Assembly (NCBI GenBank): GCA_030550625.1
Contig: JAUQOZ010000043.1
Span: 1-33,471 of the forward strand
From: Chloroflexota bacterium
GTDB lineage: Bacteria > Chloroflexota > Chloroflexia > Chloroflexales > Chloroflexaceae
Direction of reading: 5' to 3'
DNA: 33,471 nucleotides
In this document: piece after piece, positions 3,275-21,247 of the stretch
Numbering within the stretch: position 1 is the first letter of the stretch
How the letters are laid out: every line of letters starts with the position of its first letter
Program-made: the position numbers and the translations under genes
The notes under the pieces: generated by a model
The model's database searches: none
The model's input: only the letters and a program-made list of their open reading frames with translations
Told to the model about the DNA's origin: nothing

Positions 3275-3496
3275 AAAAGGCGCAGAGGGGGCAAAGACGG
3301 TCAACGCAAAGACGCAGTAGAGCCGGACGGCTGTCCGGCTCCGCAAAGACGCAGAGGATGGTAAACGCAAAGACGCAAAGGTCGCGAAGGTCGCAGAGAT
3401 ATGTATGAATGTTGGGGCAAGCGCGCTCATTGGCTTCCCCACAAAAACCTTTTCGTTCTTCGCGCCTTTGCGTTTAGACTCTTTGCGTTCTGTGCG
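3275..3496. repeat. GCAAAG-type inverted intergenic element, copy A
   Basis: The gap holds strings such as AACGCAAAGACGCAAAGG on one side (3275-3400) and the complement CGCCTTTGCG on the other (3455-3496), so the ends can pair. A separate palindrome, GAGCCGGAC then GTCCGGCTC, is embedded at 3320-3341. It lies between hypE and leuS. No coding potential is apparent beyond chance frames through the repeats. Confidence 0.8.
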
Positions 3497-3497
3497 T

Positions 3498-4553
3498 TTA
3501 ACAAATGCGCGGCAGTTGTTCGCCGACGAGGGTGTCAACCACGCGCATCCCGCCGATGCCGGTGCGAGCCACGACCACGCCGGGGTGGTCGGCGGTGGCG
3601 TAGCCGATCAGGGCAGCGTCGCGGCCTAGCGGGTGGGCGCGCATGGCGGCCAGCAAGCGCTCGGCGTCGTCACGCGCGACGAAGGCGATGAGTTTGCCCT
3701 CGTTGGCAATGTGGAGCGGATCCATGCCGAGCAGTTCGCAAGCGGCTTGGACGGCGGGCGGTACCGGAACGTCGCGCTCGACGATTTCGATGCCGAGCTG
3801 GGCATCGGCGGCGATCTCGTTGAGCGCGGCGGCGACGCCGCCACGGGTGGGGTCGCGAAGGGTGTGGATGCGGGCGCCGCTGGCGAGCATGGCGCTGACA
3901 AGGCCATGCAGTGCGGCGGTGTCAGAGACGACCGGTGCGCCGAATTCGATCCCTTCGCGCACGCTAAGGATGGCGACGCCGTGCAGGCCAATCGGCCCGC
4001 TGACGATGATCGCATCGCCGGGACGGGCTTGTTCTGGGCCGATATTCACGCCTGCCGGGATGAGGCCGAAGCCGGTGGTGGTAATGAACACACCGTCGCC
4101 GTGACCGCGATCGACCACCTTGGTGTCGCCAGCGATGAGGGTAACGCCGGCCTGCTGGGCAGCGCGACCCATACTCTCGGCAATCACACCGAGTTGGTCG
4201 AGCGGCATCCCCTCTTCGAGAATGAAACTGACGGTCAAGGCCAGTGGCTGCGCTCCCATCATAGCAATATCGTTGATAGTGCCGTTGACCGCCAGTTCGC
4301 CGATGTTGCCGCCGGGGAAAAAGAGTGGACGCACGACGAAACTGTCGGTAGAGATGGCTAGCCGCGCGCCGCCGATCTCGATGCGGGCAGCGTCGGCGAG
4401 CGGGCCGCGCGGGCCGCCGAACGCGGGCAGGAAGAGATGGCTAATCAGTTCAGCCGAGAGCTTGCCGCCGGCGCCGTGACCCATCACGATGGCCGGATAG
4501 TCGCGCAACGGCGCCGGGCAGACCCAGTTGCTAAAGTCGAGTGGTGCGGTCAT
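3498..4553 (-). CDS. hypE: Hydrogenase maturation factor HypE
   Basis: HypE uses ATP to dehydrate a carbamoyl group on its C-terminal cysteine to thiocyanate, which becomes a CN ligand of the NiFe active-site iron. The 351-residue protein belongs to the PurM/AIR-synthase-like family. It shows the glycine-rich GHGAGGK segment near the N-terminus, the FFPGGNIGELAVNGT block, and the diagnostic C-terminal end PRIC with the terminal Cys351. The ATG at 4553 has AAGGA 9 nt upstream, whereas the TTG nine bases earlier overlaps that site. It is the last gene of the hydrogenase locus. Partners are HypF (carbamoyl donor) and HypC/HypD, all encoded nearby. Confidence 0.96.
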   Translation of the reverse strand: MTAPLDFSNWVCPAPLRDYPAIVMGHGAGGKLSAELISHLFLPAFGGPRGPLADAARIEIGGARLAISTDSFVVRPLFFPGGNIGELAVNGTINDIAMMGAQPLALTVSFILEEGMPLDQLGVIAESMGRAAQQAGVTLIAGDTKVVDRGHGDGVFITTTGFGLIPAGVNIGPEQARPGDAIIVSGPIGLHGVAILSVREGIEFGAPVVSDTAALHGLVSAMLASGARIHTLRDPTRGGVAAALNEIAADAQLGIEIVERDVPVPPAVQAACELLGMDPLHIANEGKLIAFVARDDAERLLAAMRAHPLGRDAALIGYATADHPGVVVARTGIGGMRVVDTLVGEQLPRIC

Positions 4554-4570
4554 AGGGTGCAATCCTTACA

Positions 4571-5015
4571 GTCAGGCGCAGAGGGGGCAAAGGCGCAAAG
4601 ATTTTTAACGCAAAGACGCGAAGGGCGCAAAGGACGCAGAGGTTTGGGATGGGATGGTGTTGTTAGGACGGTGGTTTGTGGACACGACATCGTGTTCATC
4701 TTTATCATATACAAGGCAAGGGTGCCAACGTACTCGTACCGAATCCATCCAAATCCATAGCGTCTCTGCGCCTTTGCGGAGTTAGATAGTTGTCCGGCTC
4801 CGCAAAGGGCGCAAAGGATGATAAACGCAAAGGCGCGAAGGGCGCAAAGGACGCAGAGGTTTGGGATGGGATGGTGTTGTTAGGACGGTGGTTTGTGGAC
4901 GCGAGATCGTATTCATCTTTTCGTATACAGGGCAAGGGCATGACCACACTTATACCGAATCCATCCAATGCGGAGCCGGACAGCCGTCCGGCTCTACTGA
5001 TGCTCGCTTTGCGCC
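4571..5015. repeat. Two tandem copies (B, C) of the GCAAAG-type element
   Basis: The hypE-hypD gap is filled by two similar units. Each starts with a GCGCAAAGG-rich stretch (4571-4642 and 4800-4858), followed by a spacer of about 115-120 bp that is clearly duplicated: 4643-4757 resembles 4858-4968, both beginning AGGTTTGGGATGGGATGGTG. Each ends with reverse-oriented CTTTGCG motifs or the GAGCCGGA...TCCGGCTC palindrome (4973-4993). I see no gene here. Confidence 0.8.
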
Positions 5016-6137
<1,122 letters not shown>

Positions 6138-6159
6138 CACGTGCTCTCCTCAATAGTTA

Positions 6160-6312
6160 GACGCAAAGGGGGCAAAGGCGCGAAGGTTGTTAACGCAAAG
6201 GCGCAAAGAACGCGAAGTTTTTCTATTATGGTGGTACAAGTGTAGTGACAGACTCACCTTTTAGCGCCTTTGCGTCTTTGCGTGTAGAATCTCTGCGCCT
6301 TTGCGCCTCTCC
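6160..6312. repeat. GCAAAG-type inverted element, copy D
   Basis: GCAAAGGCGCAAAG-type motifs at 6161-6220 face complementary CTTTGCG motifs at 6260-6306, with a spacer of about 40 bp. It lies in the hypD-hypC gap and would form a long imperfect stem in the operon transcript. Confidence 0.8.
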
Positions 6313-6313
6313 C

Positions 6314-6580
6314 TCATACGGGTTCGGGCGATTCATCGGGATTCAATTCCTCTTCAAGCACGCCGAGCGACTGGAAGAGAGCGAGCGTTTCGCGCGCCGA
6401 TTCCTCATCGAGGCGAGTAATAGCAAAACCTACATGCACGATCGTGTAATCGCCAACTTGCAGATCGGGCAGGTAGGCGAGACAAACTTCTTTGACGATG
6501 CCGTTGAAATCGACCTTGCCCATCCGGGTGAGGCCGTTGTCGTAGATTTCGACGATGCGACCGGGAATGCCGAGACACAT
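6314..6580 (-). CDS. hypC: Hydrogenase maturation chaperone HypC
   Basis: This small chaperone carries the iron with HypD and then binds the large-subunit precursor. The 88-residue protein begins MCLGIPGRI. Removal of Met1 exposes Cys2, the functional residue of the family, so the start must be the ATG at 6580 and not the TTG two codons upstream. AAAGGA lies 7 nt before this ATG. The core VDFNGIVKEVCLAYLPDLQVGDY block and an acidic proline-containing C-terminus are visible. It follows the NHL-repeat gene in the operon. Confidence 0.95.
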   Translation of the reverse strand: MCLGIPGRIVEIYDNGLTRMGKVDFNGIVKEVCLAYLPDLQVGDYTIVHVGFAITRLDEESARETLALFQSLGVLEEELNPDESPEPV

Positions 6581-6600
6581 ACGCAATTCCTTTCAACATG

Positions 6601-6760
6601 TAAAGGCGCAACGTGAGCAGAGACGCAAAGATTGTTAACGCAAAGGCGCAGAGAACGCGAAGGTTTTTTAACGCAAAGGCGCTAAGAACGCGAAGGGCGC
6701 AAAGGTTTTGTATGTGGCTGGATCGTGAGCGTTGGCAACTGTAGCGTCCTTTGCGGTTTG
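6601..6760. repeat. GCAAAG-type element, copy E
   Basis: Direct repeats of AACGCAAAGGCGCAGAGAAC type at 6601-6708, with only a short opposing CCTTTGCGG at 6746-6755. It lies between the NHL-repeat gene and hypC. Confidence 0.75.
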
Positions 6761-6766
6761 CCTACC

Positions 6767-7870
6767 TTACACCTCCCAAATCAAGACCCGATTATTGCCT
6801 GAGTCAGCGATCGCCAGCCACTGGCGATGCGCGCAGAGACCATACGGCCAGCAGAGCGTATCGGGGCCGACGGCTTGCCAGCGGTTTTCGCCGCTATCGG
6901 CAAAATTGTACTGGCCGTAGACCGCTTGCGCCGGCAGACCGGCTCCGGCACGCGGGATGGGTTGCCACAGCAGCACGCGATTGTTGGCAGTGTCGGCCAC
7001 GAACAACCGGTCGCCAGCACAGGCTACCGCATACGGAAAGCGGAGCCGGTGCGCTCCCTGCGGCACGTACGGTTGTTCAAATGCGCTCTGCATATCTTGC
7101 TGACCTAACACCAGATCGGCGGGTCGATCAATCGTTGGCGGCGGCGTCCACCCCAACACGCGATGGTTGCCGGCATCAGCGACATACAACGTCTTGCCAT
7201 CGCCGGCGACAGCGTGCGGCCAGCGAAAACTGTTGGCTGCCGGCGGGCCGCCGCGATTTTCAGCGTTGCTGCACGGATCGGGCTGGCCGAGAATCAGGTC
7301 GGGCGGCTGGCCGCGTTCCGGCAACCCATGCCATCCCAGCACCCGCCGGTTGCCAGTATCGGCAATATAAAACCAGCCGTTGATCCATGCCACGCCATAC
7401 GGCCAATAGAGCGTCTGCGGGCCAGCCGCACCGCCACGGTTTGGCTCGATATCAAGTAGCGAATCTTGCCCGATCACGCTATCAGGCGGCACGCCGGATC
7501 GATCTGGAATGCGATGCCAACATAATACACGATGATGCCACGCATCGGCAAGGTAGATTCTTCCTTCCGCAACCGTTACCCCGGTGGGCAGATGGAAGCC
7601 ATTGGCGGGGCCATAACCGGCAGCGCGGGGGCCTTCGTGGAAGAAATCGGGTTGGCCGAGCACGACATCAGCCGGTTGGTGATCGTGCGCTGGAAACCCG
7701 TGCCAGATCAAGACGCGATGGTTGCCCGAATCAACGACGATCAGCCGCTCGTCGTCGAGATAGACGCCACGCGGCGCATAGAGATGAGCCGGGGTCGGAT
7801 TGGCCGCCGGCAGCGCCAAGCCACCCGGCGCCGGCGCGCCCAACCAACGAACTGTCTTGCTTGCGATCAT
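6767..7870 (-). CDS. NHL-repeat beta-propeller protein of the hydrogenase locus
   Basis: The 367-residue protein contains six copies of a blade ending of the form (V/I/L)xxADxxNxRVLxW, for example VVDSGNHRVLIW near the N-terminus and IADSGNNRVLIWEV at the very C-terminus. It should fold as a six-bladed NHL propeller. No signal peptide or membrane segment is seen, so it is probably cytoplasmic. The start is the ATG at 7870, which overlaps the stop of the NifU-Rieske gene as ATGA, indicating translational coupling. NHL proteins are known companions of some high-affinity [NiFe]-hydrogenase clusters. Their role there is not known to me; a protein-protein or membrane docking platform is an inference. 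Confidence 0.85.
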   Translation of the reverse strand: MIASKTVRWLGAPAPGGLALPAANPTPAHLYAPRGVYLDDERLIVVDSGNHRVLIWHGFPAHDHQPADVVLGQPDFFHEGPRAAGYGPANGFHLPTGVTVAEGRIYLADAWHHRVLCWHRIPDRSGVPPDSVIGQDSLLDIEPNRGGAAGPQTLYWPYGVAWINGWFYIADTGNRRVLGWHGLPERGQPPDLILGQPDPCSNAENRGGPPAANSFRWPHAVAGDGKTLYVADAGNHRVLGWTPPPTIDRPADLVLGQQDMQSAFEQPYVPQGAHRLRFPYAVACAGDRLFVADTANNRVLLWQPIPRAGAGLPAQAVYGQYNFADSGENRWQAVGPDTLCWPYGLCAHRQWLAIADSGNNRVLIWEV

Positions 7871-8730
7871 TGCGGTCGTACCCAAATCATGCCATCAACA
7901 ACCCGGAGCGGGAACGGCTCAAGCTGCGCTTGCGGCGCAGTGAGGCATTCGCCGCTCTGCACATCGAAACAGAATCCATGCCACGGACAGGTCAGCGTGC
8001 CAGCGTCAGGATCAAGCATTCCGCCATCGAGCGGGCGACCCTGATGGGCGCAGGCGTTGCGGTAGGCGCTCAGCCGGTTGGCTAAATTGACGATCAGCAC
8101 ACTGCCGCGTTCGGTGGCGAAACTCACCATGTGGCCGGGCGGCACCTCGGTGACGGCTGGACCGCGCACCCACCCCTTCTCGGCTGCCGGCGCTTCCTGC
8201 GCTTCGGCGCGGAGGATCGCCGGCGTCGCTTGATCGTTCACCACCTCAAGGCGAGTGATTTCCGGCACCTCGCGCAACAGCGCCTCTTCGACGTGTTTGC
8301 GTAAGGTAAAGGCCGAGAGCGAACAGCCGTTGCACGAGCCATGCAAGCGCACGTAAGCCACGCCGTCGCGCACATCAACCAATTCGGCATCGCCGCCGTG
8401 CGATTGCATATAGGGGCGCGCGCCGTCGAGCACGCGGCGGGCGCGGGTGAGCGGGTCAGCGCGCACGATGCCGTGCATCACCAGCAGCGCGTAGACGGCG
8501 GGATCTTCGACCAGTTCGAGCAGCAGCTCTTTGCCGCGCGGATCTTGCTTGAGCCGGCGAACGATCGTGGTGAGGGCCAGTTTGTGAAAAGCCTCGATGG
8601 CCTGTTTCAACTCGGTAGCAGCAGCTTGCGCCGCCGGTTCGAGTTTGGCGACAGCGGCCACCGCGGCATCAACCCGCGCGGCGGCCTGTTCGAGTTCGTC
8701 AGCAGTTGTGAGCGATTGGGTCATAGGCAT
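7867..8730 (-). CDS. NifU-domain / Rieske [2Fe-2S] fusion protein
   Basis: A 287-residue two-domain protein. Residues about 1-75 are helical. Residues about 91-165 match the NifU C-terminal Fe-S scaffold, with the CxxC at Cys133 and Cys136 (SCNGC). Residues about 186-285 form a Rieske ferredoxin domain with ligands Cys227-x-His229 and Cys248-x-x-His251 (CAHQG, CPWHGF). No transmembrane helix or signal is seen. It may supply clusters to the hydrogenase small subunit, carry electrons from it, or both (inference). It is coupled to the NHL gene by an ATGA overlap. Two ATGs lie two codons apart. A GAG precedes the second by 6 nt, so the start may be 8724. Confidence 0.9.
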   Translation of the reverse strand: MPMTQSLTTADELEQAAARVDAAVAAVAKLEPAAQAAATELKQAIEAFHKLALTTIVRRLKQDPRGKELLLELVEDPAVYALLVMHGIVRADPLTRARRVLDGARPYMQSHGGDAELVDVRDGVAYVRLHGSCNGCSLSAFTLRKHVEEALLREVPEITRLEVVNDQATPAILRAEAQEAPAAEKGWVRGPAVTEVPPGHMVSFATERGSVLIVNLANRLSAYRNACAHQGRPLDGGMLDPDAGTLTCPWHGFCFDVQSGECLTAPQAQLEPFPLRVVDGMIWVRPQ

Positions 8731-8785
8731 CTCGATAGGTTGTTATCTAGCCGCAGCGAGCGCGGAGGAGGCTTTAACCCGATTG

Positions 8786-9148
8786 CTAGCCGCCATACCC
8801 GATCATCTGCTCAAGCGCCTCTTCGCTGCGCAGGGCCAACAGCTCGGCGAACGCTTGGCGCGCCATCGTTTGCAGCATCGCTTCAATCTTGCCTGCCGGC
8901 GGTGAAGGCAACGAGCGTCCGCTCAACGCTTGCAAGACGAAACATGCTCCCGCCGGATTATCGAGCAAAAAATCTTGAAAGATCGCCGTGACAAACCGAT
9001 CAAGCCAAATGCCCTCGCCGTGCGGATCGGCGCGCAAGCGGGCTAACGCCGCTTCAGGGCCGGCGCAGCGCTCGACGATCCGCTCAACGAAGCGTTCCGT
9101 GGCCATCATCAGCAGCAGATCAAATTGTTGGCGTTGGTATGCTTCCAT
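8786..9148 (-). CDS. Conserved-looking 120-aa protein of unknown function in the hydrogenase operon
   Basis: The frame remains open far upstream, but the upstream part is translated repeat DNA, so the start is placed at the ATG at 9148 (MEAYQRQQFD). The 120-residue product is predicted mainly helical and has no signal peptide or metal motif. It has a basic and acidic helix, ATERFVERIVERC, and a leucine-rich C-terminus. I do not recognise the family. It sits 55 bp upstream of the NifU-Rieske gene in the same orientation, so it is probably co-transcribed and linked to hydrogenase maturation or electron transfer (inference). Confidence 0.7.
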   Translation of the reverse strand: MEAYQRQQFDLLLMMATERFVERIVERCAGPEAALARLRADPHGEGIWLDRFVTAIFQDFLLDNPAGACFVLQALSGRSLPSPPAGKIEAMLQTMARQAFAELLALRSEEALEQMIGYGG

Positions 9149-9164
9149 ACTCTTCTCGACAGCA

Positions 9165-9390
9165 AGACGCAAAGCGGGCAAAGGTGCTAACGCAAAGACG
9201 CAAAGCGAGCAAAGGCGCAGAGATTTTGAAACGCAAAGACGCGAAGGGCGCGAAGGTGCGCAAAGGTTTTGGGTTTGGATGTTGGTCAATCAGTACGGCT
9301 TGTAGTAAAACCATAAAAATCTTTGCGATCTTTACACCTTTACGTTGATCATCCCTGCGTCATTGAGAGCCGGACAGCCGTCCGGCTCTA
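9165..9390. repeat. GCAAAG-type element, copy F, with GAGCCGGAC palindrome
   Basis: AACGCAAAGACGCAAAGCG-type motifs at 9165-9265 face CTTTGCG- and CTTTACG-type motifs at 9321-9345. A perfect GAGCCGGAC...GTCCGGCTC palindrome follows at 9366-9387. It occupies the gap between the TPR gene and the 120-aa gene. The remaining bases to 9441 hold nothing recognisable. Confidence 0.75.
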
Positions 9391-9441
9391 CATGGGCCGT
9401 TGCCCTCGTTGTGCCTACTGGAACCGGACGGACATCTGGTT

Positions 9442-10665
9442 TTACTTCCCGACCGCCTCGTGCTGATCGATGTTCGCCAGCAACTCGCGCACCGTTATGA
9501 TCGCCGGCTCATCGCCGATCTGAGCAAAGAGTTGCTCGGCTTGCAGCAACCGTTCGCGGGCTTCGGCGAAGATGCCAAGATGGGCGAGGGCATTGCCCAG
9601 ATTGGCTAGAATACGGGCATAGCCAGCCGGGTCAGCAATCGGATCGCGCCGCTGCAACAAGTCTTCGTAAATCGCCACCGCTTCGAGCAGATGTTCGGCT
9701 GGGCGGGCCGAGTGAACATATTGCAGCGCGTTCGCCAAATTGAGGCGAGTACTTGTCCACTCATGAGGATGCTGATCGGGATCATAGACGCTGAGCGCGG
9801 CGCGCAGCGCCTGCACTGCAATCGCGCCGCGCAACCGGTCGCCGGCTTCGGTCATCGGCATCGCAAGGTAGGCCAGCGCCAGATTGTTTTGGATGAAAGC
9901 GAACTCCAGCGGGTGGGTCTCGCGCTGATAGTAGCGAAGCGCCTCTTGGTAGCAGCGCACAGCGGCTTGTAACGGCCCGCGCTGACCATTGGCATGCTCT
10001 TGCAGCAGTTGGCCTAGTTGCACCGCTGCGCGGGCGCGCACTTCTGAGAGACTTTCAGGTGGAATGTAGTCAATTGCTTGCTGCAACCAGCGTGTAATCA
10101 GCGCCAGATCGCCGCCATGCTGCATCGCCAGCTCGGCTCGGTTGAGCGCGATCTGGCCGGCCAGTGCGGGCGAGACGGGGGCAGCAGCCGCAATTGCCTC
10201 GGCAAAGTGCCGATCAGCGGCAGGAATGTCACCCTGCTCGATCGCTGCCGCCGCGTGCGCGACCAGCGCCAGCGCACGTACCTCGCCGGTTGCGCCATCG
10301 AGCGACGGCGGTTCGCGGCGATGGCCCATGGTAAACGCTGCGACCCCTTGCAAGCACGCCAATTCGCCCTCGAGCAGCGTGTGGAGCGTCAGGTCATCGG
10401 CAGGAGCGCCGGCCAATACGTAGCGGTTGTAACGGGTCACCAAATCATTGCTCGGCGGCAACGCCGCTAGCGCTTCCGTGACTTTGCCAGCCAGCGCGTG
10501 CGCGTAGAACTGCCATTCCGGCGGCCATTCAGCCGGGATTTCGCCGCGCAGCAGGGCGGCTAATGCCGGGCCGGCAGCGGGCTTGTCACTCGGCGGCAAG
10601 ACTAAATATCCGGCAGGAAGGGCAAAAATACCCAGTGGTTGAGGACGCACAGCAAGACGATTCAT
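9442..10665 (-). CDS. Tetratricopeptide-repeat-type protein of the hydrogenase operon
   Basis: A 407-residue, mostly helical protein. From about residue 125 onward it shows repeated A/L/Y-rich helix pairs of TPR type, for example AIEQGDIPAADRHFAEAIA, YQEALRYYQRE and NLGNALAHLGIFAEARERLL. The first 120 residues are not repetitive. No signal peptide or membrane helix is present. Its start overlaps the stop of the 108-aa gene as ATGA, so the two are translationally coupled. TPR proteins accompany several high-affinity hydrogenase clusters. A scaffold role in assembly is an inference. Confidence 0.85.
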   Translation of the reverse strand: MNRLAVRPQPLGIFALPAGYLVLPPSDKPAAGPALAALLRGEIPAEWPPEWQFYAHALAGKVTEALAALPPSNDLVTRYNRYVLAGAPADDLTLHTLLEGELACLQGVAAFTMGHRREPPSLDGATGEVRALALVAHAAAAIEQGDIPAADRHFAEAIAAAAPVSPALAGQIALNRAELAMQHGGDLALITRWLQQAIDYIPPESLSEVRARAAVQLGQLLQEHANGQRGPLQAAVRCYQEALRYYQRETHPLEFAFIQNNLALAYLAMPMTEAGDRLRGAIAVQALRAALSVYDPDQHPHEWTSTRLNLANALQYVHSARPAEHLLEAVAIYEDLLQRRDPIADPAGYARILANLGNALAHLGIFAEARERLLQAEQLFAQIGDEPAIITVRELLANIDQHEAVGK

Positions 10666-10988
10666 AACGTGTGCTCCGGTTCTGGCGACAAGGACATACG
10701 CAATGCGCCGTGATCATCATCCCACACGGCGCGGCGCGGGCCGGGCGGCGTTGCCGGCGGCAAAACTTCCCAAATCAAGACGCTACGGTCGCCGCGGGCA
10801 TTGCGTTGTTTCAACAACAAACCGCCGGCTGCCGGCCCGCGCAGCGGCGCCAACCAAATCTCGCCATCGCGCGGTAACGCCACTAGCAAATCAGCAGGAA
10901 AGTAGCGTTGGGCCAGCGCCGCTGGCAGATGCAAATAGCCTTGCGCCGTCAATTCAAGTAGCCAGCTCTCCATTGTTTCGGTCTTCAT
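10662..10988 (-). CDS. 108-aa protein of unknown function in the hydrogenase operon
   Basis: A short protein with alternating hydrophobic stretches and no cysteine. It includes ALAQRYFPADLLVALP and DRSVLIWEVLPP, which look like a small beta-rich domain. I do not recognise the family. It overlaps the 3' end of the protease gene upstream and is coupled by ATGA to the TPR gene downstream, so its place in the operon is firm. The start is uncertain: ATGs at 10988 and 10973 are both possible, and a TTG at 11006 is less likely. None has a clear ribosome binding site, which fits coupling to the upstream gene. Confidence 0.75.
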   Translation of the reverse strand: MKTETMESWLLELTAQGYLHLPAALAQRYFPADLLVALPRDGEIWLAPLRGPAAGGLLLKQRNARGDRSVLIWEVLPPATPPGPRRAVWDDDHGALRMSLSPEPEHTL

Positions 10989-11475
10989 CAACGATACGAT
11001 GGCCAAGGTACGGTTGCCATGGGTTACGGCTCAGGTGCTGGGCCAAATCCTCCAGCCGCGCGGCAACCGCTGGGCTCAGCGGCGCGCCGATGGTAAAGTC
11101 GCTCCCCTCGATCAAATACACCTGTACTGAGCGTGGGTACGCATCTTTGAGCAACCAGCGGCCAAACGCCAGCGCATGATCCCAGCGGAAAGCGTGCAGA
11201 TTGATGCCGGTCAGCGGCGGCAACTGCTCAACAACCGAACCCGGCACCGCGTAAATGGTGCCGGGTTCGGCGCCGGTGCGGGCGGCGTCAACCAAAATCA
11301 CGTTATCAATCCCGCGCATGCGAAACGCGACATCCATCCCGCTGGTGCCGGCATCGGCTACGCCAACGCCGGGTGGCAGGCCGATTTCAAGCAAGCGCCG
11401 CACCAATACCGGCCCAACCGCGTCGTCGCCGCGTAAGAGGTTGCCACAGCCGATGATCAGGAGTTGTTCAAGCAT
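10954..11475 (-). CDS. hupD: [NiFe]-hydrogenase maturation protease
   Basis: This endopeptidase of the HyaD/HybD/HupD family removes the C-terminal tail of the large subunit after nickel insertion. The 173-residue protein begins MLEQLLIIGCGNLLRGDD. Likely metal-sensing residues, by comparison with HybD Glu16, Asp62 and His93, are Asp17, Asp63 and His94. The frame extends 36 codons further upstream, but that part is translated repeat DNA, so the ATG at 11475 is used. It follows the large-subunit gene, its expected substrate, after a 364-bp repeat-filled gap. No clear ribosome binding site is seen. Confidence 0.93.
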   Translation of the reverse strand: MLEQLLIIGCGNLLRGDDAVGPVLVRRLLEIGLPPGVGVADAGTSGMDVAFRMRGIDNVILVDAARTGAEPGTIYAVPGSVVEQLPPLTGINLHAFRWDHALAFGRWLLKDAYPRSVQVYLIEGSDFTIGAPLSPAVAARLEDLAQHLSRNPWQPYLGHRIVDEDRNNGELAT

Positions 11476-11525
11476 GACATAATGATCTAGCGATAAGTCA
11501 AGATGTTTCCGTGCCACACCCCTCT

Positions 11526-11752
11526 TGTCATTGCGAGGGAGCGGCGGCGACCCGCCTTGCGGGGAGCCGCCCAACCGAAGCAATCTCCTCCTTCAGCGGA
11601 AAGGATGCCACTGCCGTACTCGCAGGGGATTGCTTCGCTCTGCTGCGCTACGCTCGCAATGACAGCCGGTGAGCGATAGGTGCCCCCTCAACAGTTCGTT
11701 CCCGCTCTCGTGGGGTTGCCGTGCCGCGCTGCGCGCGGCTCGCAATGACACA
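11526..11752. repeat. Nested inverted repeats of the TGTCATTGCGAG family
   Basis: TGTCATTGCGAG at 11526-11537 is the complement of CTCGCAATGACA at 11653-11664. Inside them CGAAGCAATC (near 11573) faces GATTGCTTCG (near 11629). A further CTCGCAATGACA lies at about 11740-11751. The unit is a mobile-looking intergenic palindrome, and a partial copy occurs at about 28490-28530. It fills the 364-bp gap between the large-subunit gene and the protease gene, which otherwise holds no gene. Confidence 0.85.
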
Positions 11753-11839
11753 TATCCCTCCAGCCTGAACAACGCGGGTTCGTCTGCGCCGGCGATTACC
11801 CCAACCACCGGCGCAGACGGCCTTGCGCGCTTGCCCCTG

Positions 11840-13477
11840 CTACGCGCCTTCACCAATGCGGAACCGCGCCAACTCTTTGCCGGTCTTTTCGTCGTAGGCA
11901 TGCACCGTACAGACGAGGCACGAGTCGTAGCTCCGCGCCACATGGCCGAGTTCGACCGGATCGTTGGGATCGGCAATCGGCGCGCCGAGGAAGGCTTGTT
12001 CCATCGGCCCATTGACATCGCGGCCATCGCGCGGCCCGATGTTCCACGCCGTCGGCGTCACCACCTGATAATTCTCGATCTTGCCATCCTTGAGCACGAT
12101 CCAGTCCGAGAGGCTGCCGCGAGCGGCTTCGGTTGAACCAAACCCGCGCCCTTCGGGCAGCTCCTTCGGCTTGATATAAAACTTCTCGTGCAGATTGATC
12201 TGGTCAAGCCACTTGCGCACCAGCTTGTAATACTTGGGCGCTTCGTGCATGCGGGCCATCACCCGCACCAACACACTCGGCCCAACCGTTGTCACCGCAT
12301 CGAGGAAGAGCGGGTCGTAGTCTTGCCAATCGGCAGCGCCGGGGCGGCCAGCAATCACCTGCCGGGCCAGCGGGCCGGCCTCGACCGGATGGCTGCCGAC
12401 GCTGGGGATGAGGTAGCGCGGCGCTTTGGCCCACGTGTACTTGCCCTGCCGGCGGCCAACTTCGGGATCGATCGGCTCGGTGCGCCCTTCAAACGGGTGC
12501 AGCGCATGGCTGCCCTCGTAGAACGAGTGGGTCACGTCTTCGCGCACGTTGGCCTGATCAAAATCGTAGAACTGGCCGTTGACATACACGCCGGAGCGCG
12601 CGATCAGCGCCGCGTTGCGGCCCTCGATCGTCGGGCGAGCATAGAGCTCGGGATGGAAATAGGTGCCGGTGGCGATGTAGTTATTCCAGCCAGCGCCATA
12701 CTTATCGAGACCAGCGGCCATCGCAAAGCGGATGAAGAAGCCGCAGTCAGAGTTGTAGTGGCGCTCGTTCTCGTGCATCCACTCCATCACGTCGGCCCAG
12801 CTCTTGTTCTGCATCCAGCGATCGACTGAGCAACCGAGCCACTTCTTCTCCAGCCACTCATCTTTCCAGTATTCGAGAATGGCGATAGCGCGGGTGACAT
12901 CGGCCAGCGTTGGCGCACACATCACACCGCCGGGGATCATGAAGCTGGAGTGGGGCCACTGGCCGCCGAAGATGGCGTAAATCTCGACCGGCTTATTCGA
13001 GAGGGTCACGCCGTGCTCATAGCTCGTGCCGACAAAGGGAGCAAACCGGCGCACCGCCTCATCGTATTCGGGCAGGTGAGCGTACTTCTTGTTGGTCAGG
13101 TCGATGGCGAACAGCGCATAGAACCAGCGCGGGATGCTTTGCAGCGTCTCGCAGGCTTGGGCGATATTGCGAATCAGGGTCGCATTGGGCGGCAACTCCG
13201 TTTGCCATGCCGTATCGAGCGCGTAGGCCGCCTTGGTCAAGTGGCTGCCGCCGCAGATGCCGCAGATGCGCGGCGTGACGATCAAGCCGGCCTGCGGATC
13301 TTTGCCCTTCAAAATAATCTCAAAGCCGCGAAACATCGAGGCCTCAGTCCATGCACTCGTCACAACCCCATCGCGGATTGTGACCCGCACGTCGAGGTCT
13401 CCCTCGACGCGGCCAAGCGGGCTGATGCGCAGATCGCGCCCGGTGATCGTTGCCGGATTCTCGATAATATTGACCAT
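11840..13477 (-). CDS. hhyL: [NiFe]-hydrogenase large subunit, group 1h (actinobacterial type)
   Basis: Catalytic subunit carrying the NiFe(CN)2CO centre and oxidising H2. The 545-residue protein has the N-terminal nickel motif RICGICGGSH (Cys72, Cys75) and the C-terminal motif DSCLVCTVH (Cys520, Cys523, His526). It has DSC instead of the common DPC. A 19-residue tail after His526 should be cut off by the protease encoded next. The GGQWPHSSFM and RGFGSTEAARGS blocks fit the group 1h family (formerly group 5), known for high-affinity, oxygen-tolerant oxidation of trace H2. GGGAGA lies 8 nt before the ATG. The gene begins 18 nt after the small-subunit stop. Confidence 0.95.
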   Translation of the reverse strand: MVNIIENPATITGRDLRISPLGRVEGDLDVRVTIRDGVVTSAWTEASMFRGFEIILKGKDPQAGLIVTPRICGICGGSHLTKAAYALDTAWQTELPPNATLIRNIAQACETLQSIPRWFYALFAIDLTNKKYAHLPEYDEAVRRFAPFVGTSYEHGVTLSNKPVEIYAIFGGQWPHSSFMIPGGVMCAPTLADVTRAIAILEYWKDEWLEKKWLGCSVDRWMQNKSWADVMEWMHENERHYNSDCGFFIRFAMAAGLDKYGAGWNNYIATGTYFHPELYARPTIEGRNAALIARSGVYVNGQFYDFDQANVREDVTHSFYEGSHALHPFEGRTEPIDPEVGRRQGKYTWAKAPRYLIPSVGSHPVEAGPLARQVIAGRPGAADWQDYDPLFLDAVTTVGPSVLVRVMARMHEAPKYYKLVRKWLDQINLHEKFYIKPKELPEGRGFGSTEAARGSLSDWIVLKDGKIENYQVVTPTAWNIGPRDGRDVNGPMEQAFLGAPIADPNDPVELGHVARSYDSCLVCTVHAYDEKTGKELARFRIGEGA

Positions 13478-13495
13478 TGCCAGCTTCTCCCTAGC

Positions 13496-14467
13496 TTATA
13501 CAACAAACATATCTTCTTTTGCCCACTTCGGCGCTGCCACCCGCGCCGCTGCCGCCAGTGCCATATAGCTGACCGGATCGGTGCCGGTTGGCACTTCCTT
13601 CGGAATCGCGCCACTGATCTTCTGCGTCTTGAAGACGGTGCCGGGGGCCAGATCGAAGAAGGGGAACTCTGGCTCGGTGCAGCCGGTGCAAGGCATACCG
13701 GCGCGAGTCTTCGACGACTGGCGATTCCAGAGGATGCGGTTGCAGGGCGAGCGGGTCATCGGGCCGCGGCAGCCAAACTCGTAGAAGAGACAGCCGGTGC
13801 GGGTACCCTGCCCAAATTCGAGCGTTGATTGCTTGTACTCAAAGAACTGCACGCGGGTGCAGCCGGTTTGGGTGAAGCTGGTAAAGAAGGTCTGCGGGCG
13901 TTGCAAATCATCGAGCGCGATGTCGGCAGCGCGGCCACTGGCGACGGCGACCAGAATCTGCGTCACCCAGTCGGGGTGGGCAGGGCAGCCGGGAATATTG
14001 ATCACCGGTAAGCCAGCCTTCGAGCGCCAGTTGGGGCCGAGGAAGCCGCCGAGTTCGCGCTTGTGGAATTGGAGACCGGTGGACTGGCTGGGGTTGGGGG
14101 CCATCGCCGGGATACCGCCCCAGCAGGCGCAATCGCCAATGGCAACCACAATGCTGGCCTGCGCAGCCAACTCGCGCACCCATTCTTGCATCGGGCGATC
14201 GGCGAACATGTTGTAGCGGCCAGTGCCGTTCGGCGCCTGTATCACCGATCCTTCAAAGACAAAGATATCGAGCGGGCGCGCGCCGCTGGCGCAATCGTGG
14301 AAAATCCGCTTTGCGTTTTCGCCCAACTCCATACCCAACGAAGGGTGCCAGAGGATCTCGATGCCGAAATCGGTCACCAGATCGCAGGCGCTGGGTTCCT
14401 CGGCGTTCAGGAACGACATCGTGTTGCCGCTACAGGCGCCACCCTGCAGCCAGAGCAATGTTGCCAT
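13496..14467 (-). CDS. hhyS: [NiFe]-hydrogenase small subunit, group 1h (actinobacterial type)
   Basis: Electron-transfer subunit with three Fe-S clusters. The 323-residue protein starts MATLLWLQGGACSGN. At the proximal cluster the usual CxGC is CSGN (Cys12, Asn15), so one normal cysteine ligand is missing. Group 1h enzymes are known to use three cysteines and one aspartate there. Other conserved cysteines are in GDCACWGG (113, 115), PGCPAH (161), and Cys203, 226, 233, 242, 260 and 263. There is no Tat signal and no C-terminal membrane anchor, so a cytoplasmic enzyme is likely. A strong site, AAGGAGG, precedes the ATG by about 7 nt. It is followed directly by the large subunit. Confidence 0.95.
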   Translation of the reverse strand: MATLLWLQGGACSGNTMSFLNAEEPSACDLVTDFGIEILWHPSLGMELGENAKRIFHDCASGARPLDIFVFEGSVIQAPNGTGRYNMFADRPMQEWVRELAAQASIVVAIGDCACWGGIPAMAPNPSQSTGLQFHKRELGGFLGPNWRSKAGLPVINIPGCPAHPDWVTQILVAVASGRAADIALDDLQRPQTFFTSFTQTGCTRVQFFEYKQSTLEFGQGTRTGCLFYEFGCRGPMTRSPCNRILWNRQSSKTRAGMPCTGCTEPEFPFFDLAPGTVFKTQKISGAIPKEVPTGTDPVSYMALAAAARVAAPKWAKEDMFVV

Positions 14468-14517
14468 CGAATCGCCTCCTTAATGGTCTTTCACACACAA
14501 CAAACCTTGGTCAAAAC

Positions 14518-14533
14518 GCAACCTTGAGGTTGC
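14518..14533 (-). terminator. Terminator-like hairpin between hypB and hhyS
   Basis: A perfect 6-bp stem with a 4-nt loop, read on the minus strand as GCAACC-TCAA-GGTTGC followed by GTTTTG. The short stem and weak T-run suggest partial termination or mRNA processing rather than a strong terminator. It could set different levels for the maturation genes and the structural genes (inference). Confidence 0.4.
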
Positions 14534-14556
14534 CGCACCACGCTTTTGTTCTCTAA

Positions 14557-15249
14557 TCAACCACTGGTACGCCGGTGCTCCCCTTGCGTCGTGATCCGCT
14601 CGCGCAGCCATGCCAGCCACTCGGCAAGACCACCTTCGCGGCGAGCCGAGGTAGCGATAATCGGCGCGAGCGGGTTGACCGCGCGGATATTTGCTTCGGC
14701 TTGCGCGCGATCAAACCCCACCGGCTCGGCCAGATCCATCTTGGTCAGCAGCACCGCATCAGCGGTCGCAAAGGTTGACGGATACTTCAGCGGTTTATCT
14801 TCGCCCTCGGTAGTTGACAACAAGACTACTCGCGTCGCCTCGCCGAGGTCGTAGCCTGATGGACAGACCAGATTGCCGACATTCTCGATAAACAGCAGAT
14901 CGAGCTCGTTCAAATCCCAACCTTCAAGATGGCGGGCAACGATGTCTGCCTCAAGATGGCACATATCGCCGGTTTGAATCTGGCGCACCAAACCGCCGCT
15001 GCGCGCCAGCCGGCGAGCATCGTTATCGGTGGCGAGGTCGCCGACCAACGCTGCGACCCGGTACTCGGCCAGCAGCGCGCGCATCGTCGCTTCGAGCAGG
15101 CTGGTCTTGCCAGCGCCGGGGCTCGAAAGCAGGTTAACCACAAACACACCAGCGGCGTGAAAGCGGCTGCGCAGCTCGGCGGCGAGTTGGTCGTTCTTGC
15201 TCAGCACACCCTGTCGAATTTCGATCAACCGTTTGGCTTCGTAGCTCAT
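14557..15249 (-). CDS. hypB: Nickel-insertion GTPase HypB
   Basis: G3E-family GTPase that, with HypA, delivers nickel to the large subunit. The 230-residue protein has the P-loop SSPGAGKTS (42-50), GDLATDND, the metal-site Cys97-His98 (MCHLEAD) and Cys129 (NLVCPSGYD), and the TKMD base-recognition motif. There is no histidine-rich N-terminal stretch, so it has no nickel-storage domain. The frame is open 42 codons further upstream over hypA, but the ATG at 15249 overlaps the hypA stop as ATGA and is the natural start. Confidence 0.95.
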   Translation of the reverse strand: MSYEAKRLIEIRQGVLSKNDQLAAELRSRFHAAGVFVVNLLSSPGAGKTSLLEATMRALLAEYRVAALVGDLATDNDARRLARSGGLVRQIQTGDMCHLEADIVARHLEGWDLNELDLLFIENVGNLVCPSGYDLGEATRVVLLSTTEGEDKPLKYPSTFATADAVLLTKMDLAEPVGFDRAQAEANIRAVNPLAPIIATSARREGGLAEWLAWLRERITTQGEHRRTSG

Positions 15250-15590
15250 GGCGTCTCCAATGCCACCAATTCCAATTCGCGCCCGTGAACGAGCTGGCCA
15301 GAGGGTTGGCCGCACTGCGGGCAACGGAACAAACGCGGGTTCGGTAAGGTCACTTCGGTGTTGCAGGTGGAGCAAAAGACCGTCACCGGCACCTCTTCGA
15401 TGATCAATTCAGCGTTCGCCAGCGGGGTGCCTTCAGCGGCAATCGCAAAACTAAACCGCAGCGCATCGGCGACCACGCCGGCCAGCGCGCCAATCCGCAA
15501 ATGAACGGCGCTGATCTCCTCAGCGCCGGCTTCGGCAGCGGCGGCGCTAGCGATATTCACAATGTTGTGCGCAATCGATAACTCGTGCAT
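15246..15590 (-). CDS. hypA: Nickel metallochaperone HypA
   Basis: Small metallochaperone that binds nickel through its N-terminal MHE motif and zinc through two CxxC pairs. The 114-residue protein begins MHELSIAHN, with His2 as the nickel ligand, so the start is fixed at 15590. The zinc-site cysteines are FCSTC (73, 76) and FRCPQC (90, 93). The upstream extension of the frame is translated repeat DNA. No good ribosome binding site is visible. It is coupled to hypB by an ATGA overlap. Confidence 0.95.
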   Translation of the reverse strand: MHELSIAHNIVNIASAAAAEAGAEEISAVHLRIGALAGVVADALRFSFAIAAEGTPLANAELIIEEVPVTVFCSTCNTEVTLPNPRLFRCPQCGQPSGQLVHGRELELVALETP

Positions 15591-15600
15591 AGGGTTAACG

Positions 15601-15790
15601 TACAGGCGCAAAGCGAGCAAAGACGGTTAACGCAAAGACGCAAAGCAAGCAAAGGCGCAAAGGGTTTAACGCAAAGGCGCAAAGGGCGCCAAGGACGCAG
15701 AGATTGTTGGGGTTTGGCTTAAGCATAGCGGTACTCTCCCTTTGCGCCTTAGCATCTTTGCGTTTGATTCTTTAGCGTCTTTGCGCTCCT
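15601..15790. repeat. GCAAAG-type inverted element, copy G
   Basis: The most symmetric copy. GCGCAAAGCGAGCAAAGACG-like motifs at 15603-15700 face CTTTGCG motifs at 15738-15788, with about 40 bp between. It fills the gap between the DUF1641-like gene and hypA from end to end. Confidence 0.82.
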
Positions 15791-16654
15791 TCACTTCAAC
15801 GAACTGCCAAACCGGCGGCCAAACTCGACGATCAGGCCGGCGGCGCGCTGTACGTCGGGATCGCGCAGCGCACGGAGCAGGCCAAAGAGACCGATGGGTT
15901 TTGGCGACTGGCGCAACGCCTCGCGGCTGGCGACGAAGGCGTCGCCGGCTTCGCCGACGAGTTGGACGGTATCGGGATGGAACACTCCCGAATCGAGCAG
16001 AGCATCGAACTCTTCGGAAGCGATAAACGGTTCGATCTTCTCGATCACGCGGATAAAGTTGGGCGCCACGGCCACGAGGCGCGGGAAGTAGGGCAAGAAG
16101 GCGATCAACGCATCGATGAGCTTGTCAGGTGTCACTGCGCTGGTTGCCATCACAGCGCGCAGCTCTTCGACCGAACTACGGATATTTTCGGTGAGTTCAT
16201 CGCCGCGGGCCAGCAGGTGATCGAGCGCGCTGACAAGGAAAGCGAGCAACTCGCTCTGGCCGAGCAGCCGGTCGAGCGCCGCGAGGGTTTGCGGTTTACT
16301 GAGGGTGACGAGCAAACGCTGAAAGGCCGGTTGGCTGGTGAGCATGGCGAGTTGCTCGACCGTATCGGTCAACTGCGGCAACGTGCGCGCCAGCCGCACC
16401 AGTTGGCCAGCGAGCTCGCCGCTCTCTGCTGGCAGCGCCGCGCGCAGTTCTTGCACACTAGCTGCCACATTATCGGCGATCACCTCGCCGCGTTGCAACA
16501 GGCTATCAACCGCGCCGGCGGAAAAAGCCAGCAACTCGGCGTGGTCAAGCAAGCGGTGTAACGCGGCAGCCGTCTGCGGTTCGTTCAGCCGGTCAAGTAA
16601 GGCGGCAGCGTTCAGCGGACGGTCGGCATACGTGGCGGCGCCATTGCTGCTCAT
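15791..16654 (-). CDS. DUF1641-like helical protein, first gene of the hydrogenase operon
   Basis: A 287-residue, cysteine-free, largely helical protein. It contains two similar halves (LNEPQTAAALHRLLDHAELL and LSKPQTLAALDRLLGQSELL), suggesting an internal duplication. The C-terminal FGLLRALRDPDVQRA segment resembles DUF1641, a family often encoded next to oxidoreductases, hydrogenases and formate dehydrogenases. No membrane segment is clear. The function is unknown; an adaptor or membrane-association role is an inference. AGGAG lies 4 nt before the ATG at 16654, so that start is preferred to the ATG at 16666, which lies upstream of this site. It is the promoter-proximal gene of the locus. 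Confidence 0.75.
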   Translation of the reverse strand: MSSNGAATYADRPLNAAALLDRLNEPQTAAALHRLLDHAELLAFSAGAVDSLLQRGEVIADNVAASVQELRAALPAESGELAGQLVRLARTLPQLTDTVEQLAMLTSQPAFQRLLVTLSKPQTLAALDRLLGQSELLAFLVSALDHLLARGDELTENIRSSVEELRAVMATSAVTPDKLIDALIAFLPYFPRLVAVAPNFIRVIEKIEPFIASEEFDALLDSGVFHPDTVQLVGEAGDAFVASREALRQSPKPIGLFGLLRALRDPDVQRAAGLIVEFGRRFGSSLK

Positions 16655-16782
16655 TGCGCTCCTCATGCAAGGGTGACAGTAGCGAAACCAAATTCACAAA
16701 CACATTGTGACGAGTGAAAGTCCGAAGTGAAGTTGTGGCGGCTTGGCCGATAGTGATGCGTAAAACGTGATTGTTGGTACGA

Positions 16783-17003: not shown

Positions 17004-19346
17004 ATGGAACTAACGATAACCAACCCCCAGCAGCGGCGCTGGCGGGTGAATGTACGCGGGATTGTGCAGGGCGTCGGCTTCCGGCCTTTTGTGTTTGGCT
17101 TGGCGGAACGTTGGGGGCTGGCCGGTTTTGTGCGCAACGATAGCAATGGGGTGACGATTGAGATCGAGGGTGAGGAGGGCGCGTTGCACGAGTTTGTGAC
17201 GGCGTTGCAACGCGAAGCGCCACCGTTGGCCCGCATCGAGCAGGTGAGCGTTGAGCCGCTGGCGTTATTGGGAGAACGTGCGTTTGTGATCGCGGCCAGC
17301 CAAGCGCACGCTCAGCGCCGTACCCTGATCGCGCCCGATACCGCTACCTGTGCCGATTGTCTGCGCGAGATCACCGATCCCGCCGACCGGCGCTATCGCT
17401 ATGCTTTCACCAACTGCACCAACTGCGGCCCCCGTTTTACCATCGTGCTCGATGTGCCCTACGACCGCGCCAATACCACGATGCGCAGCTTTCCGCTCTG
17501 CGAACAGTGCCGGGCCGAGTATGATGATCCGCGCGATCGCCGGTTTCATGCCCAACCAACCGCATGCCCGGTATGCGGGCCGCAGGTGCGGTTTACGCGG
17601 GGAGTGGGGAGTGGGGAGATAGGGAGTGATCGTCTTGATCCGCTGGTAGCAACGGCGGCGGCTTTGGCGCAGGGTCAGATCGTGGCGATCAAGGGGTTGG
17701 GCGGCTACCATCTGGCGTGCGCCGCCGATGACGAAGCGGCGGTGAGCCGGTTGCGCCAGCGCAAGCAGCGCGAGGCGCGGCCATTGGCGTTGATGGCTCG
17801 TGATGAAGCGACGGCTGAGCAATTGTGCATCATCGATTCGGCAGCGCGTGCGTTGCTGACCAGTCCGGCCCGCCCGATTGTGCTGATGCCGCGCCGGCCT
17901 GATGCGCCGGTGGCGCCATCGGTTGCGCCGGGGATGCAGACGCTGGGAGTGATGTTGCCGTACACGCCATTGCACCATCTGCTGTTAACCGACTATGCGA
18001 CGACGGTGGGGCCGGGGCGGGTGGCGGCGATTGTGCTGACCAGCGGCAATCTGAGCGATGAGCCGATTGCGTATGAAGATGAAGATGCAGCGCAGCGTTT
18101 GGGGACAATCGCCGATGCCTTCCTGACCCACAACCGGCCTATCCACATGCGCTGCGACGATAGTGTGGCGCGCGTAGCTGCCGGTGGGCCGCTACTCATC
18201 CGCCGCTCGCGCGGGTATGCGCCCGCGCCGATCACGCTGGCTCACGAACTGCCCTGCCCGATCCTCGCCTGTGGCGGCCATCTCAAGAATACCTTCGCTC
18301 TTGCTCGCGGGCGCGAGGTCTTTCTGAGCCATCACATCGGCGATCTCGAAAATTTGCCTACGCTGCGCTCGTTCCACGAAGGGATTGCCCATTTTCAGCG
18401 GCTGTTTGATATCACGCCGGAGGTGGTGGCTTACGATCTGCACCCCGGCTATCTCGCCACTCAAGCGGCGCTGGCGATGCCGATCGCGCGCAAGATTGGC
18501 GTGCAGCATCACCATGCCCATATCGCGGCGGTGTTGGCCGAATACGGCCACGCCGGGCCGGTGATCGGGATTGCCGCCGATGGCAGCGGCTATGGGCCGG
18601 ACGGCACGGTGTGGGGGGGTGAGGTATTGGTAGCGACCTGCGCTGCCTACGAACGGGTGGGCCATCTGGGGTGGCTGGTCTTGCCCGGCGGTGAGCAGGC
18701 GGTGCGCCAGCCGTGGCGGGTGGCGGCGGCGGCGCTGGCCCAACTCTACGGCCCCGATTTCTGGCGGCTGGCGTTGCCGTTTACCCAGCAGCTCGATCAA
18801 GCGGCGTGGCAGGTGCTGGCCCGTATGATTGAACGGAACCTCAACAGTCCGCGCACCTCCAGCCTTGGCAGGCTCTTCGATGCCGCCGCTGCGCTGGCTG
18901 GGATGGGTCAGATTGCCCGTTACGAAGGCGAATTGGCCATTCTCTTCGAGCAGATTGCCGATCCGCAGCAGCCGCCCTACCCTATGCCGCTGCGCGAGCC
19001 GGTCACTGCCGGCGGGCCGTTCACGCTCGACGGGTTGGCGTTGTTGGCGGCGCTGGTTGATGATCTGCGGGCCGGCGTTGAACCAGCAGCGATCGCAGGC
19101 CGGGTGCATCACGGCGTGGCGCAGGCGCTCGTGGCGGCGTGCCGGCGAGTGCGCGACGAGCGCGGTCTTACGACTGTCGCCCTCAGCGGCGGCGTGTTTC
19201 AAAATGTCTTGCTGCTGGAGACACTGGCCGATGTGTTGCGAGCCGATGGCTTTACTGTGCTGATCCCGCGCCTTGCCCCGCCGAACGATGGCGGGTTGGC
19301 GTTGGGGCAGGTGGCGGTAGCCGGGGCGATTTGTGGGATGGAATAG
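17004..19346 (+). CDS. hypF: Carbamoyltransferase HypF
   Basis: HypF makes the thiocarboxamide on HypE from carbamoyl phosphate, the source of the CN ligands. The 780-residue protein has the full domain order: acylphosphatase (about 11-100, GIVQGVGFRPF), zinc-finger pairs CADC, CTNC, CEQC and CPVC (116-191), a YrdC-like domain (about 212-390), and a Kae1-like carbamoyltransferase domain with QHHHAHIAAVL and AADGSGYGPDG. A GGGGAGT simple repeat (17599-17628) encodes a few extra residues between the zinc-finger and YrdC domains. It is divergent from the operon holding hypABCDE. CATAAT lies just before the ATG and no ribosome binding site is seen. Confidence 0.96.
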   Translation: MELTITNPQQRRWRVNVRGIVQGVGFRPFVFGLAERWGLAGFVRNDSNGVTIEIEGEEGALHEFVTALQREAPPLARIEQVSVEPLALLGERAFVIAASQAHAQRRTLIAPDTATCADCLREITDPADRRYRYAFTNCTNCGPRFTIVLDVPYDRANTTMRSFPLCEQCRAEYDDPRDRRFHAQPTACPVCGPQVRFTRGVGSGEIGSDRLDPLVATAAALAQGQIVAIKGLGGYHLACAADDEAAVSRLRQRKQREARPLALMARDEATAEQLCIIDSAARALLTSPARPIVLMPRRPDAPVAPSVAPGMQTLGVMLPYTPLHHLLLTDYATTVGPGRVAAIVLTSGNLSDEPIAYEDEDAAQRLGTIADAFLTHNRPIHMRCDDSVARVAAGGPLLIRRSRGYAPAPITLAHELPCPILACGGHLKNTFALARGREVFLSHHIGDLENLPTLRSFHEGIAHFQRLFDITPEVVAYDLHPGYLATQAALAMPIARKIGVQHHHAHIAAVLAEYGHAGPVIGIAADGSGYGPDGTVWGGEVLVATCAAYERVGHLGWLVLPGGEQAVRQPWRVAAAALAQLYGPDFWRLALPFTQQLDQAAWQVLARMIERNLNSPRTSSLGRLFDAAAALAGMGQIARYEGELAILFEQIADPQQPPYPMPLREPVTAGGPFTLDGLALLAALVDDLRAGVEPAAIAGRVHHGVAQALVAACRRVRDERGLTTVALSGGVFQNVLLLETLADVLRADGFTVLIPRLAPPNDGGLALGQVAVAGAICGME

Positions 19347-19407
19347 CCACGAAAAGACACACAACGCACAAAAACCATGACATGTTTGTGTCTTTTTGTG
19401 GCTATTC
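19342..19407. terminator. Long hairpin behind hypF
   Basis: AATAGCCACGAAAAGACACA at 19342-19361 pairs with the complementary TGTGTCTTTTTGTGGCTATT at about 19388-19407, with roughly 25 nt between the arms. The stem includes the hypF stop codon. There is no long T-run afterwards. It may end or protect the hypF mRNA. The bases from 19408 to 19506 hold nothing recognisable. Confidence 0.55.
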
Positions 19408-19506
19408 CCCATCCCCTTACCCCGTCCACGGGTCGGGTAACATGGGATGCGGGGCGGCCTGCTTTCCGCTGCGTGCCGCTGCGACTCTGCGGTCAACCAC
19501 ACCGCC

Positions 19507-20253: not shown

Positions 20254-20355
20254 GCGTGATACTGCGCAGGTGCGGGGAGGGGGCGGTTTAATTGGTTGTG
20301 GTGCGGTTGCTGGTGTGGTCTTTGCTGACAATGATTGATCAGGGGTCGCACGTCT

Positions 20356-21178: not shown

Positions 21179-21247
21179 GTCTTGCAGGCTGCCGGTGAGA
21201 GCGACGTCGATCAGTAATTGCTCGCATACAGTACCGGTAACCATATC

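Follow-up and report, generated by a model that had tools for sequence, protein, structure and literature searches.

The gene at 7867-8730 (minus strand) of the window, the whole analyzed stretch of 33,471 nucleotides, is hucE of the group 2a (Huc) hydrogenase operon of a Chloroflexus, and its product, a fusion of Nfu and Rieske domains, is best read as a dedicated hydrogenase Fe-S assembly factor (probability of about 0.68), in preference to an electron relay. Huc, the hydrogenase partner of HucE, lets some bacteria live on trace H2 in air. The gene, the operon and the requirement for the gene are already in print, hucE and NHL-repeat genes being listed among those common beside hucL (PMC7784904) and the deletion having been described in Mycobacterium smegmatis (PMC6883350), so that the finding as such is ordinary. 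What is new here is the correction of the hydrogenase group, the in silico test of linkage, the recurrent losses of the C-terminal domain (C-domain), the predicted Rieske nature of this domain in HhyE, and the variation in the number of HucM repeats.

The hucE open reading frame is intact, spans exactly 7867-8730 and encodes 287 amino acids; translation probably starts at the second ATG (8724), the position at which the relatives begin with MTQ. The protein consists of a helical N-terminal domain (N-domain, approximately aa 9-90), an Nfu domain (aa 99-161) and a Rieske domain (aa 187-285). In the Pfam search, the latter two are matched above the respective cut-offs by PF01106 (NifU, aa 99-161, E = 1.7e-21) and PF00355 (Rieske, aa 187-270, E = 4.8e-15), and residues 1-84 yield no match. 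The CNGC motif of the Nfu domain (C133 and C136), read from the sequence, is encoded at 8334-8323, and the two Rieske ligand pairs, C227-A-H229 and C248-P-W-H251, recognized from sequence and conservation, at 8052-8044 and 7989-7978, respectively (all on the minus strand); the NifU-Rieske fusion reported by the first-pass annotation thus stands. The Rieske motif has the spacing CAH-x18-CPWH, and its second site, CxxH, is of the usual Rieske form and the same in most relatives. In the AlphaFold2 model, for which 48 family sequences were used (mean pLDDT 90.1), the N-domain is helical; the pTM of 0.52 implies that the relative placement of the domains is unreliable. A fold search places the Rieske part nearest to soluble oxygenase ferredoxins (Z 17.4, 1.4 Å over 100 residues), and by both Pfam and fold comparison this part is a soluble Rieske ferredoxin fold with 2Cys/2His ligation. 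The Nfu part is nearest to Arabidopsis CnfU (2z51; fold Z 12.1, sequence match E = 6.3e-16), with which it shares the Nfu fold and the CxxC motif. In Nfu proteins, a cluster is held between two chains, and a carrier role is predicted for HucE from motif and fold; unlike CnfU, HucE joins its Nfu domain to an N-domain specific to the family and to a Rieske domain.

The relatives of HucE range in identity from 94-97% down to approximately 30%. The four closest named loci (87-97% identity) all belong to Chloroflexus, and in the phylogenetic tree, which omits two E proteins (L146 and L161), the Chloroflexus rows fall within a 68-row HucE clade with a support of 100/100. The host, with a genome of 4.74 Mb in 395 contigs, is a Chloroflexus. 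All but one of the hydrogenase-related genes of the window lie on the minus strand. The start of the NHL-repeat beta-propeller gene (6767-7870) overlaps the hucE stop in an ATGA at 7870-7867; on the other side of hucE are found a small conserved cassette protein of 120 aa from its ATG (8786-9148), a TPR-like cassette protein with weak TPR matches (9442-10665) and a second small conserved cassette protein (10662-10988), neither small protein having a Pfam match. The coupling to an NHL propeller and the proximity of a TPR protein had been noticed in the first-pass annotation and are borne out. Beyond these genes are a hydrogenase maturation protease (10954-11475; TIGR00072, 3.3e-38), the genes for the large and small subunits of a group 2a [NiFe]-hydrogenase, hucL (11840-13477) and hucS (13496-14467), both identified by similarity, hypB (14557-15249; TIGR00073), hypA (15246-15620) and a homologue of hucM (DUF1641) with a duplicated scaffold domain (15791-16666). 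Below the NHL gene lie a gene for a protein of 88 aa that by eye starts with MCLGIPG, a motif from which we take it to be hypC (6314-6580), hypD, identified by Pfam (5016-6140), and a gene with AIRS domains that, from its position, is presumably hypE (3498-4562). The divergent plus-strand gene at 17004-19346 is assumed from its translation to be hypF; homologous loci carry an annotated hypF.

The first-pass annotation had assigned the operon to group 1h, an assignment that we reject. The small subunit matches the Huc chains 7uur and 7utd with E-values of 2.5e-189 and 3.7e-189, compared with 6e-34 for 5aa5, the enzyme of Cupriavidus necator H16 that is termed group 1h in PMC10017518; the large subunit matches 7uus and 7utd with 3e-278 and 6e-278, compared with 1.7e-39 for 5aa5. 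Both subunits are thus matched by the Huc complex with E < 1e-188, and for each of them the E-value of the group 1h enzyme is higher by over 150 orders of magnitude. A positive control behaves in the opposite manner: for the large subunit of the Sphaerobacter locus L092, the E-value is 0 with 5aa5 and 6e-36 with Huc, so that the operon belongs to group 2a. Group 1h small subunits contain [4Fe-4S] clusters with an Asp ligand. The small subunit motif of the window is CSGN: the proximal site has Asn15, as in group 2a, and not the Asp of group 1h (CDGD); Asn occupies this site in 50 of the 52 group 2a rows (the other two are gaps), and the nine group-1h-like rows have Asp (7) or Cys (2). Furthermore, the HucM homologue matches 7uus_Q (E = 7.3e-15) and 7utd_Q (E = 1.5e-8), and both of these PDB entries include a chain named Huc membrane adapter or membrane-associated subunit. 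The physiological electron acceptor, which had been called uncertain, is no longer so on this assignment, since Huc reduces menaquinone internally via HucS and HucM (PMC10017518) and HucM is encoded here. Chloroflexus aggregans has been reported to use a group 2a enzyme to oxidize H2 at sub-atmospheric concentrations (PMC7784904).

The linkage of hucE to hydrogenase genes is strict: the co-occurrence analysis proposed in the first-pass annotation, when run in silico on 80 loci and 301 genomes, found no copy of the gene away from hydrogenase genes, and the description of a hydrogenase-tied protein with two Fe-S domains is upheld. The 80 loci are the best of 136 found and, having been picked by similarity to HucE, lean to close relatives; 57 of them have a 2a HucL (59-99% identity), 10 a group-1h-like large subunit (24-26%) and 13 neither on the sequence available for the locus. 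Twelve of these 13 are of the HucE type and lie on contigs that start at most 3.4 kb upstream of the E gene; eight of the 12 genomes encode a 2a HucL elsewhere (68-84% identity), and four (L032, L062, L068 and L084) have no 2a HucL in the genome, yet the cassette neighbors are present. The thirteenth locus (L099) is a 3.2-kb contig from a genome without a HucL match.

The even draw of 301 genomes, taken from one phylum, is less biased than the 80-locus set; in the initial screen, no more than 12 candidates were scored for any genome. The N-domain and Nfu domain occur together in 37 of the 301 genomes, a count that leaves out G117, where a partial N-domain match lies beside a group-1h-like pair. 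The E proteins of 35 of these genomes adjoin a hydrogenase structural gene, and the other two are on contigs that end there. By eye, E and the small subunit share a contig and are no more than 6 kb apart in 29 of the 37; a large-subunit gene or fragment lies beside E in six of the remaining eight (G142, G219, G273, G098, G090 and G254), and the last two, at contig ends, are accompanied by hyp genes (G237) and by the huc cassette (G011, identical to L028). The small-subunit family PF14720 is present in 84 of the 301 genomes, among them 36 of the 37 with E (hypergeometric 4e-22, with relatedness ignored); in the one E-encoding genome without PF14720 (G142), HhyL is directly upstream at the contig start. 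E was found in none of the 28 genomes in which every small subunit has a score of over 100 bits and thus belongs to another hydrogenase type; of the other 56 genomes with PF14720, 36 have E. One genome with a HucL of 43-45% identity (G195) has no E on its 8.4-kb contig, and its hydrogenase probably belongs to another subgroup; a group 1h case (G173) has no E match. G268, which has a HucL of 83% identity and no E match, was rejected as a HucE-less genome, given that the N-terminus of hucE is followed there by a run of N, an assembly gap.

Homologous neighbors of hucE in the 57 group 2a loci, where some losses are due to contig ends, include the TPR protein (56 loci), HucS and the NHL protein (52 each), the 10662-10988 protein (50), HucM/DUF1641 (45) and the 8786-9148 protein (40). 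None of the 10 group-1h-like loci yielded, in the neighbor comparison, a homologue of the TPR protein, the NHL protein, either small protein or HucM. Plasmids of Thermus, Sulfobacillus and Mycobacterium intracellulare carry loci with the same gene order, one small protein lacking an annotated gene in the latter two, and related gene orders are found on plasmids of Mesorhizobium, Bradyrhizobium, Octadecabacter and Sphingopyxis; in pHG1 of C. necator, the gene for the hydrogenase large subunit is followed by one for a short protein of the NifU family (192 aa). All eight of the plasmid records examined, among 34 matching records, place the gene in a hydrogenase operon. The same gene series is listed for Parageobacillus in PMC12976888.

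The N-domain is kept throughout the family, and both cysteines of the Nfu CxxC are conserved in all 80 loci, the best of 136. The full set of Rieske ligands is found in 54 of the 57 group 2a loci. At two of the three exceptions (L088 and L089), the C-domain is absent, the NHL gene is immediately next and no separate Rieske ORF was found; HucL and HucS of L088 are full-length, and L089 starts inside HucL at a contig end. The third exception (L090) is cut by the contig end. In L082, whose genome encodes a HucL of 70% identity, the Rieske fold is kept (PF13806, 6.4e-8) and the second ligand pair is replaced by Gly and Asp. L088, L089 and L082 are apart within the 2a clade of the tree, so that these changes look like separate events.

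The C-domains of five HhyE-type proteins (L091-L095) all match the Pfam Rieske model (20.4-31.0 bits against a cut-off of 20.3), and some also give weak zinc-ribbon matches below the cut-off. The folds nearest to the L092 model (mean pLDDT 78.4, pTM 0.48) are Rieske ferredoxins, and the alignments place one CPxC of HhyE on the CxH of HucE and the second CPxC on CPWH. From these alignments and models, the HhyE C-domain is predicted to be a Rieske fold with four cysteines, for which we found no published statement in the open-licence PMC literature. Among 23 further E proteins of the phylum (L121, L141-L161 and L196), 22 of which have a group-1h-like large subunit on the sequence available, the C-domain has four cysteines in nine, is absent in 11, degenerate in two and cut by the contig end in one. 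None of the 33 group-1h-linked E proteins (one contig-cut) has the full Rieske set, and this ligand set is the mark of a 2a partner. In three of the 23 (L154, L160 and L161), the Nfu CxxC is not intact, which implies that not every relative can carry an Nfu cluster; L154 and L160 also lack the C-domain and thus seem unable to hold any cluster, although errors in the metagenome-assembled genomes are possible, and HhyL adjoins two of the three. In L196 (G098), one of the two degenerate cases, the first Rieske pair is lost and CPWH is retained, a possible intermediate between the two ligand forms.

HucE, then, is most likely to act in the assembly of Huc. The helical N-domain would dock the protein, either on the Huc small subunit or on an intermediate of assembly. 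HucS would receive an Fe-S unit from the Nfu CxxC, which would span two chains, and the Rieske domain might act as a donor or acceptor of redox equivalents while the three [3Fe-4S] clusters are built or repaired; in the finished enzyme, electrons would pass from HucS to the menaquinone held by HucM, with no involvement of HucE. In M. smegmatis, HucE is required for H2 uptake, and its deletion abolishes Huc activity even with nitroblue tetrazolium as the acceptor (PMC6883350). Purified Huc consists of HucL, HucS and HucM, contains three [3Fe-4S] clusters, with menaquinone positioned at the distal one, and passes electrons directly to this quinone (PMC10017518); the term HucE does not occur in the text of that paper. 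The assembly reading is also in line with the HucM homologue of the window, the missing C-domains of L088 and L089 and the lost second ligand pair of L082. Several observations sit less well with it: Rieske ligands in 54 of 57 group 2a loci are unexpected for a dispensable domain, HucE could be lost during purification, the CxxC is missing in the three group-1h-side proteins, and we found no published demonstration of transfer to HucS. A broader view, which we consider possible but rather doubtful, is that HucE and HhyE form one family of hydrogenase-specific Nfu carriers, in which the C-terminal Rieske fold would have one of two ligand sets according to the cluster type of the partner: 2Cys/2His where the small subunit is the all-[3Fe-4S] one of Huc, and four Cys where it is the Asp-containing one of group 1h; the domain would serve cluster assembly of the respective type rather than respiration and would have been repeatedly discarded.

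The authors of the mycobacterial study left both electron transfer and maturation possible for HucE and HhyE but favored the former, citing the co-migration of HhyE with HhyL and HhyS (Islam et al., 2019; PMC6883350). As an electron relay, the Rieske cluster of HucE would take electrons from the distal HucS cluster and pass them to menaquinone or another carrier, which would fit the CxH...CxxH pattern of the 54 loci, the soluble ferredoxin fold with electron-carrying oxygenase ferredoxins as best neighbors (Z 17.4), and the requirement for H2 uptake. However, the HucL-HucS-HucM complex reduces menaquinone unaided (PMC10017518), a HucM homologue is present here, and the loss of dye-linked activity in the deletion mutant is poorly explained by an absent downstream carrier (PMC6883350); moreover, the domain is missing from L088 and L089, with no separate Rieske ORF found, and the ligands are broken in L082. 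We therefore regard a relay as unlikely, and of the two roles offered by the first-pass annotation, electron relay or cluster delivery, the second is retained and the first is disfavored by Rieske losses with the hydrogenase persisting and by the dye result.

A primarily structural role of HucE, as chaperone or scaffold in the assembly of HucSL with HucM and with its clusters secondary, appears quite improbable. The retention of the N-domain across the family and the three relatives without an intact CxxC, two of them also without the C-domain and two seen beside HhyL, point this way, but these exceptions may be assembly errors, and the CxxC of all 80 loci and the Rieske ligands of most HucE proteins speak against it. 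A general Nfu protein encoded in the operon by chance is very hard to credit. HucE is indeed the only PF01106 protein found in the host genome; however, among the 19 genomes of the host's own family in the draw, an Nfu match is found in nine of the 10 with HucL, the gene of the tenth being interrupted by an N-run, and in none of the nine without HucL. The family thus seems not to need a general Nfu, and the Nfu domain may have entered it with the huc operon; the strict linkage to hydrogenase genes likewise argues against a chance association.

The nearest described counterpart of the assembly factor proposed here is HucE of M. smegmatis, MSMEG_2268 (PMC6883350), with which the protein of the window shares the NifU-like CxxC, the C-terminal Rieske motif and the position beside group 2a structural genes. 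The two are set side by side by description, membership following from architecture, gene order, hydrogenase group and the described motifs. The Rieske signature is printed in that paper as CxH(x15-18)CxxC, whereas the second site here is CxxH; the nearest named mycobacterial locus found is the huc operon on a plasmid of M. intracellulare, whose match to the N-domain and Nfu query has 54% identity and covers 78% of it. HhyE, MSMEG_2718, the partner of the group 1h enzyme (PMC6883350), shares the N-domain, the Nfu domain and, where present, the predicted Rieske-fold C-domain, which differs from that of HucE in having CxxC...CxxC instead of CxH...CxxH or is degenerate or missing. The natural variants, namely L088 and L089 without the C-domain, L082 with broken ligands and the four-cysteine HhyE proteins, make the role of HucE and HhyE testable without designed mutants and bear on the question of how the enzymes of the atmospheric hydrogen sink acquire their unusual clusters.

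Compared with the Huc complex of 7utd, 7uur and 7uus (PMC10017518), the HucM homologue of the window contains the scaffold domain of approximately 54 aa twice in tandem (aa 23-76 and 118-171); over 56 aa, the copies share 54% identity (E = 4e-16). In the 45 loci compared (L031 is incomplete), there is one copy in L088 and in the rows of the Actinomycetota and Bacillota, two in most Chloroflexota, Acidobacteriota and Planctomycetota, and three in L035 and L060. The Huc oligomer of M. smegmatis is held together by four HucM chains with one copy each (PMC10017518), and given the varying repeat number, the size of Huc may differ among phyla.

Within 3343-15753 of the window, the gaps between the operon genes contain 21 copies of GCAAAGNCGCAAAG with at most one mismatch (0.07 expected); with 116 exact copies genome-wide and none of the reversed control, this is a dispersed intergenic repeat. 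Beyond hypF, on the plus strand, 19377-21178 encodes two putative toxin-antitoxin pairs, in one of which a PIN-domain protein is paired with a protein that weakly matches DUF2934 and in the other UPF0175 with DUF3368, and 21218-23902 encodes a restriction-modification methylase of the Eco57I/MmeI type.
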